Source of the DNA: Burkholderia metallica
Lineage (GTDB): Bacteria > Pseudomonadota > Gammaproteobacteria > Burkholderiales > Burkholderiaceae
Assembly: GCF_902832845.1 (NCBI RefSeq)
Contig: NZ_CADFDB010000001.1
Span: 62,001-126,000 of the forward strand
DNA: 64,000 nt
Direction: 5' to 3'
Within the stretch, counting starts at the first letter, position 1. The number at the start of each line of letters is the position of its first letter. Positions 29,505-55,067 of the stretch are shown one piece after another. A model generated the notes under the pieces. The model was not told the origin of the DNA. It worked only from the letters and a program-made list of their open reading frames with translations, and did no database searches. A program made the position numbers and the translations under genes.

Positions 29505-30644
29505 ATGAAGCACACGAAAGTTGCCGTAGCCGCCGCGCTTGCATGCGCGGCCTGCATTCCCGCCATCGGGCATGCGCAGAGCAGTGTGACGCTGTACGGG
29601 ATTCTCGACGCGGGCATTACGTACGTGAACAACACGGGCGGCTCGCACGTGGTCAAGTTCGACGACGGCGTCGCGTACGGGAACCGCTTCGGCCTCAAGG
29701 GCACCGAAGACCTCGGCGGCGGCCTGAAGGCCGTGTTCACGCTCGAGAGCGGTTTCCGCCTCGGCAACGGGCAACTCGGCTTCGGCGGCGCCGAATTCGG
29801 CCGACAGGCGTATGTCGGCCTGCAGAACGACTGGGGCACGCTGTCGTTCGGCAACCAGCTCGACATCACGAACGAACTCGTGTCGATCTACAACATCTCG
29901 GCGTGGGGCAGCGGCTATGCGATCCACCAGGGCGACTTCGACCGCTTCAACGGCGACCGCCTGCCGAATTCGGTGAAGTTCCTGTCGAACGACCTCAACG
30001 GCTTCAAGTTCGGCGCGATGTATTCGTTCGGCAACGTCGCGGGCAACTTCCACCGGAACAGCGCATGGAGCGCGGGCGCGAGCTTCACGAAGGGCGACTT
30101 CTCGATCGGTGCCGCGTACACGCGCCTGAACAACCCGAACGGCATCTATGCGTTCGACCCGTACGCGATGATCGGCACGCACACGTTCCTCGGCCAGCAG
30201 ACCGTCACCGTCGATCCGGCGACCGGCGCGCGCACCGACCTGTTCTCGAACACCGCGATGGACGTCGACAGCCAGGGCACGTTCGGCATCGGCACGAGCT
30301 ACACGATCGGCAAGCTGACGCTCGACGGCAACTTCTCGTACACGACGATCAAGGGCTTCGGCCAGTCGTCGCACATGCAGGTGTACGAAGGCGGCGGCTC
30401 GTACCAGTTCACGCCGGCACTGAGCCTGATCGCCGGCTACCAGCACACGCGCTTCGAAGGCCATCACTGGAACCAGGGCACGGCGGGCCTGCATTACCTG
30501 CTGTCGAAGCGCACGGATGTCTACATCTCCGGCGACTACCTGCGCGCGTCGCAGGGTGTCGATGCGGTGATCGGCTACAGCTTCACGCCGTCGACCACGC
30601 AGACGCAGGCCGACGTGCGGATCGGGATGCGGCATTCGTTCTGA
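29505..30644 (+). CDS. Gram-negative general porin (Burkholderia OmpC-like)
   Basis: 379 residues. The signal peptide is MKHTKVAVAAALACAACIP...GHA. The mature start QSSVTLYGILDAGITYVNNT is the hallmark of beta-proteobacterial trimeric porins. Many alternating beta-strands follow, ending in Phe (DVRIGMRHSF) for BAM recognition. An intrinsic terminator lies just downstream. The 259 bp before it (29246-29504) contain no gene. Cargo is not predictable; the placement after the choline genes may be incidental. Confidence 0.94.
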   Translation: MKHTKVAVAAALACAACIPAIGHAQSSVTLYGILDAGITYVNNTGGSHVVKFDDGVAYGNRFGLKGTEDLGGGLKAVFTLESGFRLGNGQLGFGGAEFGRQAYVGLQNDWGTLSFGNQLDITNELVSIYNISAWGSGYAIHQGDFDRFNGDRLPNSVKFLSNDLNGFKFGAMYSFGNVAGNFHRNSAWSAGASFTKGDFSIGAAYTRLNNPNGIYAFDPYAMIGTHTFLGQQTVTVDPATGARTDLFSNTAMDVDSQGTFGIGTSYTIGKLTLDGNFSYTTIKGFGQSSHMQVYEGGGSYQFTPALSLIAGYQHTRFEGHHWNQGTAGLHYLLSKRTDVYISGDYLRASQGVDAVIGYSFTPSTTQTQADVRIGMRHSF

Positions 30645-30692
30645 TCGGCGTAGGGTGGGGCGGCGACGTCTTCAGCGAGAGGTCTCTCTTTG

Positions 30693-30720
30693 GCGCGAAC
30701 CGAGGTTCGCGCTTTTTTTT
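30693..30720 (+). terminator. Intrinsic terminator after porin
   Basis: GCGCGAAC (30693-30700), a short CGAG loop, GTTCGCGC (30705-30712), followed by eight T. Strong canonical terminator 48 bp after the porin stop, which isolates the cysS leader that follows. Confidence 0.9.
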
Positions 30721-30750
30721 TTGACGGATGCGAACGCCCGCCCGACGGTA

Positions 30751-30780
30751 TTGACCGTTGCCGTCTATAGGCGCTAGCAT
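30751..30780 (+). promoter_or_regulatory. Putative promoter of cysS leader
   Basis: TTGACC (30751-30756) and TAGCAT (30775-30780) are separated by 18 bp. Initiation 7-8 bp downstream would fall at about 30787-30788, exactly at the ATG of the short leader ORF, implying a nearly leaderless leader peptide. No Shine-Dalgarno sequence precedes that ATG, which fits. Prediction by eye only. Confidence 0.45.
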
Positions 30781-30787
30781 CGTCCGC

Positions 30788-30877
30788 ATGCCCGATCACG
30801 CCATTTCCCTCTCCACGCCGCGCCGCGCATGTTGTCAGAACATGCCAGGGGGAAGTTGCGTCCAGCGAACTCGCTGA
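30788..30877 (+). CDS. Candidate 29-residue Cys-containing leader peptide upstream of cysS
   Basis: ATG at 30788 to TGA at 30875-30877. The peptide runs MPDHAISLSTPRR, then A-C-C-Q-N-M-P-G-G-S-C. Cys falls at codons 15, 16 and 24 (TGT TGT at 30830-30835, TGC at 30857-30859). Three Cys in 29 codons is far above the rarity of Cys in this genome. The ORF sits between a promoter-like element and an intrinsic terminator directly before a cysteinyl-tRNA synthetase gene, the classical layout of ribosome-mediated transcription attenuation. Confidence 0.65.
   Translation: MPDHAISLSTPRRACCQNMPGGSCVQRTR
30827..30852 (+). promoter_or_regulatory. Leader hairpin containing the tandem Cys codons, with alternative pairing
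   Basis: GCATGTT (30827-30833), GTCAG, AACATGC (30839-30845) is a perfect 7-bp stem whose ascending arm holds the first Cys codons. Its descending side, 30841-30852, can alternatively pair with 30901-30912 (9 of 12 positions), which includes the ascending arm of the terminator. The two folds are mutually exclusive, as expected for an antiterminator. A second small hairpin CAGCG/CGCTG (30863-30876) overlaps the leader stop codon. Confidence 0.5.
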
Positions 30878-30898
30878 ACATTCAAGCAATCGCCTTCC

Positions 30899-30931
30899 GG
30901 CCGCCTGTGATGCAAAACAGGCGGCCTTTTT
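30899..30931 (+). terminator. Intrinsic terminator in the cysS leader (attenuator)
   Basis: GGCCGCCTGT (30899-30908), an 8-nt loop, ACAGGCGGCC (30917-30926), then TTTTT and a second T-run. It is a perfect 10-bp stem, very strong, placed 37 bp before the cysS start and after the leader peptide. Such a terminator inside a leader would block cysS unless prevented from folding. Confidence 0.88.
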
Positions 30932-30967
30932 GTTTTTGGACCGCCCCTTTCGGGATGGAGAAACTCG

Positions 30968-32380
30968 ATGCCGCTCGCGCTGTATGACACCTGGTCGCGT
31001 ACCGTACGCCCGTTTACCCCGATCCGTGCCGGCCAGGTCGGCATGTACTGCTGCGGCCCCACGGTCTACGACGATGCGCACATCGGCAACCTGCGTACCT
31101 ACGTGTTCGAGGATCTCCTGCGGCGCGTGCTGGAGCGCAACGGCTACGCAGTCCGGCACGTCGTCAATATCACCGACGTCGGCCACCTGACGTCGGATGC
31201 GGACGAAGGCGAGGACAAGATGGAGAAGGGCAGCCGCCGCACCGGCGAATCGGCGTGGGCCATCGCCCGGCGCTACACGGAAGCGTTCATCCGGGACTGG
31301 CGCGCGCTCAATCTCCTCGAGCCGGCGGTCTGGTGCCGCGCCACCGATCATATCGACGAACAGATCGCGTTCATCGCGACGCTCGAGCGCGCCGGCTACG
31401 TGTACCGGACGGACGACGGCCTCTACTTCGACACCAGTCGGCAGGACGACTACGGTTATCTCGCGCGGCTGGACCGCGCGGGGCTGCAGGCGGGCAAGCG
31501 GGTGGCGCGGGGTGGCAAGCGGAGCATCACGGATTTCGCGTTGTGGAAGTTCAGCCCGGCCGACGTCAAGCGGCAAATGGAATGGGACAGCCCGTGGGGC
31601 CGCGGCTTTCCGGGCTGGCATATCGAGTGCTCGGCGATGTCGGCGAAGTATCTCGGCACGTTGTTCGACATCCATTGCGGCGGCGAGGATCACATCGCCG
31701 TGCATCACAGCAACGAGATCGCGCAGACCCGCGCGGCCCACGGCACGCAGCTCGCGAACTACTGGATGCACGGGCACTTCCTGACGCTCGACGCCGATAC
31801 GAAGATGTCGAAATCGAGCGGCGAATTCGTTCGGCTGCAGACGTTGCAGCGCCGGCACGTCGATCCGCTCGCGTACCGTTACCTGTGCCTGACGGCCCAC
31901 TATCGCAGCAAGCTGCATTTCACGTGGGCGTCGCTCGACGCCGCGCAAACCGCGCTGAACCGGCTGCGGCACCTCCATGCCGGCTGGCCGGACGGCGGGC
32001 GCGTCGATGCGGATTTCGCCGCGCGCTTCGACGCGGAACTGAACGAGGACCTGAATCTGCCCAGGGCGCTCGCGGTGCTGTGGGATCTGGTCAGGAGCGA
32101 CCTGCCGGCGGCGACGCTGAAAGCGACCGTCGACAGCTTCGACGCCGTGCTCGGCCTCGGTTTGCGCGAATGGCGGCCGGTTGCGCCCGACGTTCCCGAA
32201 CACGTGCGTGCGCTGCTCGACGCGCGCGAGCGCGCTAGGGCGGACCAGGACTGGGCGCAAGCCGACCGGATCCGGCGCGCGTTGAGCGCCGAAGGGTGGC
32301 ATGTCAAGGACACCGCGGAAGGTCAATGCGTGTCCGCCATCGCCACGGGCCCGACCGAGACGGGCGACCCGACGCGGTGA
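30968..32380 (+). CDS. cysS: Cysteinyl-tRNA synthetase, divergent second-type copy
   Basis: 470 residues, close to the usual 461. Class I motifs are intact: GMYCCGPTVYDDAHIGNLRT (HIGH as HIGN, with the zinc/substrate Cys) and TKMSKSSGEF (KMSKS). The other zinc ligands are HIECSAM and the His/Glu in GGEDHIAVHHSNEIAQ. The DVGHLTSDADEGEDKMEKG insert differs from the DIDDKI region of the standard proteobacterial enzyme, so this is probably an extra, transferred copy. GGATGGAG lies before the ATG. Its leader appears to hold a cysteine attenuator. It may act as a stress-inducible or inhibitor-resistant backup; that is inference. Confidence 0.92.
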   Translation: MPLALYDTWSRTVRPFTPIRAGQVGMYCCGPTVYDDAHIGNLRTYVFEDLLRRVLERNGYAVRHVVNITDVGHLTSDADEGEDKMEKGSRRTGESAWAIARRYTEAFIRDWRALNLLEPAVWCRATDHIDEQIAFIATLERAGYVYRTDDGLYFDTSRQDDYGYLARLDRAGLQAGKRVARGGKRSITDFALWKFSPADVKRQMEWDSPWGRGFPGWHIECSAMSAKYLGTLFDIHCGGEDHIAVHHSNEIAQTRAAHGTQLANYWMHGHFLTLDADTKMSKSSGEFVRLQTLQRRHVDPLAYRYLCLTAHYRSKLHFTWASLDAAQTALNRLRHLHAGWPDGGRVDADFAARFDAELNEDLNLPRALAVLWDLVRSDLPAATLKATVDSFDAVLGLGLREWRPVAPDVPEHVRALLDARERARADQDWAQADRIRRALSAEGWHVKDTAEGQCVSAIATGPTETGDPTR

Positions 32381-54691: not shown

Positions 54692-54723
54692 ACAAAAACG
54701 CCCCGGACGTGAAGTCCGGGGCG
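54692..54723 (-). terminator. Strong minus-strand terminator without an upstream gene (small RNA candidate)
   Basis: CGCCCCGGAC (54699-54708), loop GTGAA, GTCCGGGGCG (54714-54723). On the minus strand it ends in TTTTTGTC. No coding frame on the minus strand feeds it: 54724-55163 lacks a supported gene. The simplest reading is the 3' end of a small RNA of up to a few hundred nt starting within 54724-55060. Alternatively it ends an untranslated remnant. Confidence 0.55.
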
Positions 54724-55067
54724 GAAAATCGGCCCGCGCGCCGTGTCTGCTCGCCCAGTCACGGTGCCCATCGCCGGGGGACGGAGGTGCCCGCAGGGAT
54801 CGAACGCGGGCGGGGAGGCGACGGGCCGGAAGCGCGGTCCGGTACGTGATGATCGCGCGCGCATCCCGTTGAGACCCTGACGCGAACATGACTTTTTCGT
54901 CAGGTTCGCGCGGCGCCGCGCCGGGCGTGGGCGAAGGCGCCGCTCCAAGGCCCCGACGACAGGGGCGCTGCGGCAGATCCGGGAGTGTTCTTGCGGCGGC
55001 CGTCGACCCGCGAAGCTTCCCGCGTCGTCCGATTTTCCCGTCGGGGTAAATACTGAATCCTGATTCC
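54724..55067. other. Non-coding stretch upstream of fucose operon
   Basis: About 340 bp without a supported gene on either strand; open frames here lack starts or coding character. The minus strand may hold the body of the candidate small RNA ending at 54692, including a hairpin CCCGC/GCGGG near 54790-54815. Confidence 0.4.

Follow-up and report, generated by a model that had tools for sequence, protein, structure and literature searches.

In the pheST, trp, his and leu attenuators of Escherichia coli, a protector, an antiterminator and a terminator are combined with control codons in a translated leader. Attenuation by the ribosome is also said to govern a spare aminoacyl-tRNA synthetase gene, trpRS1 of Streptomyces, which Vecchione and Sello reportedly described in 2010 as encoding an auxiliary, antibiotic-resistant TrpRS, and leaderless polycysteine sORF attenuators of mycobacteria were reportedly described by Canestrari in 2020. 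For Actinobacteria, leader peptides with cysteine have been predicted before cys or cbs genes; in the part of that paper that deals with them, no conserved terminator hairpin is reported and Rho is suggested (PMC1262725). For cysS itself, an attenuator of Rhodobacterales, uORFC-8-2, was predicted in RNA Biol in 2021, and the section on this motif gives 145 examples, exclusively upstream of cysS in Rhodobacterales (PMC8632094). We found no betaproteobacterial cysS leader in the open-access literature, which was judged mostly from listings, and one may be in print elsewhere.

The locus considered here lies before a second, auxiliary cysteinyl-tRNA synthetase gene, cysS2, of Burkholderia metallica. 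Our main reading, to which we assign a probability of about 0.88 on comparative sequence evidence, is that its leader is a ribosome-mediated transcription attenuator that would sense the charging of tRNA-Cys and control cysS2.

The cysS2 leader and its proposed mode of action

The window, which is the whole stretch of 64,000 nucleotides that was analysed, is part of a 1.68-Mb contig in a genome of 7.55 Mb. The leader occupies about 200 nt between an upstream porin-like gene and cysS2, with the following features.

30692..30713, plus strand: terminator-like site 3' of the porin-like gene, ahead of the cysS2 unit
30751-30756 and 30775-30780, plus strand: promoter-like site (sequence pattern), -35 TTGACC and -10 TAGCAT with an 18-nt spacer
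30788..30877, plus strand: leader peptide ORF of 29 codons, encoding MPDHAISLSTPRRACCQNMPGGSCVQRTR and then a stop, with Cys at codons 15, 16 and 24
30798..30861, plus strand: predicted protector stem (regions 1:2), arms 30798-30801/30858-30861 and 30803-30812/30847-30856
30827-30833/30839-30845, plus strand: inner Cys-codon hairpin of the protector, 7 bp
30830..30835, plus strand: tandem Cys codons 15-16 (TGT TGT), the proposed stalling site
30844-30853/30892-30901, plus strand: proposed antiterminator (regions 2:3), in the window with additional pairing of 30855-30859/30886-30890
30857..30859, plus strand: third Cys codon (codon 24)
30899..30937, plus strand: predicted intrinsic terminator, 10-bp stem 30899-30908/30917-30926 followed by a T-run
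30968..32380, plus strand: cysS2, second (auxiliary) cysteinyl-tRNA synthetase

The leader frame with its three Cys codons, the 7-bp hairpin over the Cys codons (30827-30845) and the 10-bp terminator with its T-run had all been named in the original prediction for this locus, and each is present in the window exactly as described there. The promoter-like site is the only one in 30600-31000 (shuffles, 0.0 with sd 0.2), and the leader folds with -60.9 kcal/mol (z -3.3 against shuffles, 1/200 as low). Known RNA families were considered as well: no riboswitch, T-box or known sRNA of Rfam matched the leader at the gathering threshold, where three sub-threshold matches were seen (E 0.67-0.99), and a T-box was also missing from 30740-30970 at E up to 1. 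Elsewhere in the window, at 54693-54843 on the minus strand, the Burkholderia sRNA family ncS037 (RF02868) was matched with 146 bits.

We propose a transcription start that coincides with the leader ATG or adjoins it, so that ribosomes would load on a leaderless mRNA. With ample Cys-tRNA, the ribosome would reach the stop codon and cover region 2, and the terminator at 30899-30937 would form, leaving cysS2 off; the same outcome is expected without translation, when region 1 would pair with region 2. With Cys-tRNA in short supply, because cysteine is low or because the housekeeping CysRS fails or is inhibited, the ribosome would stall at codons 15-16 and break the Cys-codon hairpin, and region 2 (30844-30859) would be freed to pair with region 3 (30886-30901) once the latter is transcribed. 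This pairing would occupy the GGC at the base of the terminator, and with the terminator disrupted, polymerase would read on into cysS2. Conservation of the promoter-like site, the frame, the tandem Cys codons, the terminator and the association with cysS2 argues for this scheme, as do double changes in the protector stem and the terminator; the transcription start, the stalling, the antiterminator with its register and the signal are the parts that we infer.

Conservation of the frame and of the pairing elements

The pattern used to collect leaders required TTGAC, followed by a -10-like box and, 4-11 nt after the box, by an ATG; their presence is therefore partly selected, and a constant distance of 7 nt between box and ATG is not. 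A first alignment, A1, comprised 39 leaders. It drew on the window, on 21 loci of the genus and on L002-L031, which are 30 of the 80 named loci; six loci that were identical to others and seven without this leader (L022, L026-L031) were dropped. The second, A2, comprised 57 distinct leaders: those of A1 except L023 and L025, which are divergent, and 20 out of 23 newly collected ones, the divergent L036, L040 and L042 being left out. Three loci (L195, L198 and L044) have the leader frame and a visible terminator that the terminator pattern missed, and two (L185 and L199) have no usable frame. Covariation was tested on A2 with 500 shuffles each, and duplex energies and equilibrium folding on the 39 leaders of A1.

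In all 57 leaders the -10 element (TANNAT) ends 7 nt ahead of the ATG. The -35 element is TTGACC in 56 leaders and TTGACG in one, and the spacer measures 18 nt in 40 and 17 nt in 17. Transcription usually starts about 7 nt past the -10 element, and the fixed spacing therefore suggests that the mRNA is probably leaderless, with its start at or next to the ATG at 30788; 12/57 leaders have a Shine-Dalgarno-like tetramer in the 20 nt that precede the ATG. The promoter-like site thus predicts a start upstream of the terminator, in line with the original prediction.

The leader frame is open over its first 72 nt in 57/57 leaders, compared with 25/57 and 36/57 for frames +1 and +2. Tandem Cys codons (CC) are found in this frame in all 57 and in neither other frame, the first of them at codon 15 in 52/57, and both TGT and TGC are used among the leaders. 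Codon 24 is not always Cys, being Arg in L006, L011, L013, L024, L186 and L194. The length of the frame ranges from 24 to 29 codons (25 in 48/57), with TAG as the stop in 55/57 and TGA in 2/57; the window and L088 have CAG at codon 26, where most relatives have TAG, and thereby gain four codons. Alignment gaps within the frame are 3, 6 or 9 nt long, and gaps downstream of it have lengths not divisible by three; L006 possibly contains a 1-nt shift within the frame that is masked by compensation. No synonymous bias was detected in the 48 leaders of equal length (0.28 in the frame vs 0.33 and 0.30 in the others), so conservation in the frame, as far as the alignment tells, concerns the Cys codons and the RNA. 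An alignment of leaders had been named beforehand as the test that could refute attenuation by a leader peptide at cysS2, and the finding that ORF, Cys codons and terminator are all conserved in relatives supports that proposal.

The protector stem has 60 double-change cells in A2, where shuffles average 29.9 (0/500 as high), and 35 in A1; the unit of this count is the sequence and not the event, in leaders that are related to one another. Its cells are paired in 78.3%, vs at most 54.6% when the arms are slid. In 21 of the double changes, the third base of the first Cys codon is altered from TGT to TGC together with the matching partner base, so that the cysteine and the base pair are both kept. 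Similarly, the terminator is paired in 92.5% of cells and has 22 double-change cells, which are a replacement of G-C by A-U at one pair in 22/57 leaders (mean 8.6, 0/500 as high). Ten protector pairs carry a double change (shuffled mean 7.9, 17/500 as high); further pair types in the protector were not raised (409/500 shuffles as high), and in the terminator neither the pairs with a double change (497/500 as high) nor further pair types were raised. The protector duplex reaches a z of -2 or lower in only 10/39 leaders, nearly all of the cepacia type, and its energy lies above the shuffle mean in some of the 39. In the consensus fold, with a z of -7.8 for the whole leader, the Cys hairpin and the terminator appear and the outer protector helix does not. 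On these alignments, a protector stem that holds the control codons and an intrinsic terminator are both predicted before cysS2.

The evidence for the antiterminator is of a different kind. The register 30844-30853/30892-30901 is paired in 80.9% of cells over 57 leaders vs at most 62.1% when slid (80.7% in A1), with column shuffles at 80.2% (73/500 as high). It does not covary, its score lying under the shuffle mean with 500/500 as high. Region 2 would be restricted in its changes by having two pairing partners, which is offered as an explanation of this and not as evidence. In half-transcribed folds, i.e., of the RNA from ribosome to polymerase with the right arm of the terminator not yet made, placing the ribosome on the first Cys codon gives an antiterminator that takes the terminator's basal GGC in 54/57 leaders (the others being L179, L181 and L144), and with shuffled upstream sequence the antiterminator appears in 212/1710. 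The consensus fold of the half-transcribed leaders shows it too, yet no better than shuffled columns (z -0.5, 52/200). Duplex energies and an exchange of region 3 were tried as further support and gave none that was clear: the antiterminator duplex is slightly under shuffles (mean z -0.9 over 39 leaders), and 17 representatives tolerate an exchange of region 3 between them with little loss (permutation p 0.21).

The original prediction had placed the alternative pairing at 30841-30852/30901-30912, where 9 of 12 positions do pair in the window, as claimed, and control through this register would mean a deeper invasion of the terminator stem within the same attenuation scheme. By the shuffle test it outperforms its neighbour, with 64.6% of cells paired over the 57 leaders against 62.8% in shuffles (0/500 as high), a covariation score reached by 1/500 shuffles, and 16 double-change cells (28/500 as high), 14 of them at one pair. 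It is nevertheless the less paired of the two, two of its 12 pairs form in 0/57 leaders and two are gapped in 41, a slide by +2 leaves 60.0% paired, and the neighbouring register is the one chosen in the half-transcribed folds. We consider control through it unlikely, and the conserved antiterminator is proposed to use one or the other of these two candidate registers.

At equilibrium with the ribosome at codon 15, the terminator still forms with a probability of 0.99 in the window (0.46-1.00 over 39 leaders), and in the window its probability is 0.99-1.00 whichever of the four modelled states is taken. As the terminator wins at equilibrium, kinetic control must be assumed for the attenuator. 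The constancy of the terminator, together with the lack of purifying selection on the amino-acid sequence, would also suit a terminator that ends a separate short untranslated RNA or merely dampens cysS2, the short frame being there by chance. Such a terminator would leave the in-frame tandem Cys codons of 57/57 leaders, the fixed place of the ATG, the gaps in threes, the Cys-keeping double changes and the linkage to a CysRS gene to coincidence, and we regard it as very improbable.

Linkage of the leader to cysS2 and wider occurrence

The product of cysS2 (30968-32380) matches NCBIfam TIGR00435 with 399 bits (cut-off 340). At the positions that we take to correspond to the Zn ligands of E. coli CysRS, the residues look kept in an alignment to 3sp1. 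The genome has a second cysS copy at G000:C5:154797-156161, 38% identical to cysS2, and the closest named relatives of both the window cysS2 and its leader are from Burkholderia. A covariance model found one strong site in the own genome, at 150 bits, with the next at 20, and none of 11 regions upstream of housekeeping cysS (the 306 nt before the own copy and ten others) contains a CC uORF. Model R1, run with stricter filters over 300 genomes of the order, gave matches in 26 of them; those outside the own genome all score at most 37.3 bits and are for the most part taken for chance or terminator-like matches.

In the genus sample, cysS2 is carried by 23/65 genomes (21 nearly complete, one split and one fragmented), and the leader accompanies it in 23/23, including 21/21 with a nearly complete gene. 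In the family sample, which shares 21 carriers with the genus sample, there are 43 carriers among 398 genomes (E up to 1e-150), and the leader frame plus terminator are present in 41/43. The two exceptions belong to other genera: L185 has lost the leader ATG and L199 is without the leader, and both offer a natural comparison for cysS2 without attenuation. A different departure is seen in one genome of the genus, at L144 (G063:C3:1871500-1876200), where cysS2 appears as two separate matches about 1.1 kb apart behind an intact leader that resembles an Achromobacter leader. Overall, the leader is kept in Burkholderia, Paraburkholderia, Trinickia, Achromobacter and Variovorax, and is less strictly conserved in Chromobacteriaceae.

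Plasmid or chromid records that match at all number 37, and the leader is present in 7/7 of those examined, which have matches over 80% or more of the query; these seven were not used for pattern finding, come in part from species already represented among the genomes, and include one whose leader is identical to that of a genome already in the set. In Paraburkholderia sprentiae (L183), cysS2 and its leader are located on a plasmid typed as conjugative, and a gene for a tyrosine recombinase follows, its near end about 1.2 kb past the cysS2 match. In addition, the cysS2 proteins of Achromobacter and Variovorax branch among Burkholderiaceae rows in a protein tree with bootstrap not settled, which was used only for this placement, a housekeeping row with an absurd branch being disregarded. 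The plasmid and chromid copies and this branching suggest that the gene and its leader travel together, and cysS2 is probably mobile.

A constant operon or pathway partner of cysS2 was not found in a small sample of ten loci with one neighbour each. Six of these neighbours have a Pfam match above the cut-off (LysR, VgrG-like, folD-like, ClpP/NfeD-like and two MFS), and the other four have no Pfam match or one below it. The neighbours bear on the idea that cysS2 is chiefly a zinc-starvation (Zur) paralogue with the leader as a secondary addition. CysRS paralogues with kept Zn ligands, as they look to be in cysS2 too, are described in Zur regulons of beta- and gamma-proteobacteria, including a cluster of Cupriavidus metallidurans, and the zinc set that is named in the corresponding part of that paper (PMC2770081) is absent from the six neighbours with a Pfam match. 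A chiefly zinc-related role is in our view hardly probable; Zur control and attenuation of cysS2 could coexist.

Among the 80 closest named cysS2 relatives, 41 have a short CC frame within 300 nt upstream, compared with 8/80 on the opposite strand, which suggests that cysS leaders of this sort are common in Betaproteobacteria. The leader type described here for Burkholderia cysS2 accounts for 23 of the 41, and CC frames beyond this type include those of Chromobacterium, Vogesella, Undibacterium, Janthinobacterium and Collimonas. In the two Undibacterium loci (L027, L028), Cys-rich frames precede cysS, one of them ending in six consecutive Cys codons, and no intrinsic terminator was seen by eye upstream of cysS. 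Frames with Cys codons near their end also precede cysS in four proteobacterial loci (L168, L170, L171 and L172), e.g., MFVRAFSPCCCACCCR and MKTSFAICGICIIG. Seven alphaproteobacterial loci of one family (L150-L156), which we guess to be Rhodobacteraceae, have mostly Ile/Cys-rich frames of 13-15 codons before cysS, e.g., MNTASIIIICCITR; by eye, five have CC, L154 and L155 have separated Cys codons, and some of the ATGs lie a few nt past a -10-like box and may be leaderless too. Rows titled Chloroflexi or kin have a short CC frame upstream of cysS in 2/13 cases. An arrest peptide that senses something else through the nascent chain, such as thiol oxidants, a metal or a ribosome-targeting drug, would account for the well-conserved peptide part near the Cys codons, roughly (R/H)ACC..xPxGxCV, but it is the least credible reading and is set aside because this part coincides with the paired RNA arms, and also in view of the similar synonymous share in all frames and of the more distant cysS leaders, which share little beyond the Cys codons.

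For cysteine-responsive attenuation, these comparisons provide evidence in Betaproteobacteria of a cysteine-specific attenuator on a synthetase gene that is a mere spare copy. It is possible, if doubtful, that cysS2 and its leader form a self-contained, horizontally moving rescue cassette that is on only when housekeeping charging fails, for instance in the presence of a natural CysRS inhibitor. If so, leaderless attenuators with Cys codons ahead of cysS would be widespread in proteobacteria, as a device that emerged or spread several times. The question of which condition leaves tRNA-Cys uncharged despite the housekeeping CysRS is made testable by this locus, and the leader offers a possible sensor of tRNA-Cys charging.

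Comparison with described attenuators

The arrangement of protector, proposed antiterminator and terminator with control codons is that of the E. coli attenuators, from which the Burkholderia leader differs in its presumed signal, tRNA-Cys, and in its apparently leaderless start. With trpRS1 of Streptomyces it shares, by the reported account, a spare aminoacyl-tRNA synthetase gene with an attenuator of its own and another copy without one; the differences lie in the amino acid, Trp and not Cys, in the host, Actinobacteria, and in the resistance that is known for trpRS1. The mycobacterial polycysteine attenuators are similar in that a leaderless, Cys-rich sORF responds to cysteine, as the title of that report has it, the leaderless start of the Burkholderia frame being a prediction. 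The mycobacterial leaders and those predicted in Actinobacteria (PMC1262725) precede cys or cbs genes, whereas the Burkholderia leader combines an intrinsic terminator with a synthetase gene.

The resemblance to uORFC-8-2 is considerable. As presented in the section of PMC8632094 on this motif, a uORF that starts with AUG and has two tandem Cys codons precedes cysS, the first stem holds these codons, a U-run is consistent with a terminator stem, and the proposed logic is the same; the tandem Cys codons are usually codons 14 and 15, and 15 and 16 in the Burkholderia leader. Unlike uORFC-8-2, the latter belongs to Betaproteobacteria and not to Rhodobacterales, precedes a second cysS, and has a different peptide and a different RNA. 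The uORFs of the seven alphaproteobacterial leaders, with their 13-15 codons and Cys, likewise look unlike the Burkholderia leader by eye. The original prediction had regarded an attenuator of this kind on a synthetase gene in Burkholderia as notable, and since a tandem-Cys uORF attenuator before cysS had already been predicted in Rhodobacterales, at least in the passages of PMC8632094 that treat it, the novelty is smaller than first thought. The kind of attenuator is known; what appears to be new, judging from the sequences compared here, is the clade, the auxiliary and probably mobile gene under its control, and the joining of an intrinsic terminator to a frame that is apparently leaderless.
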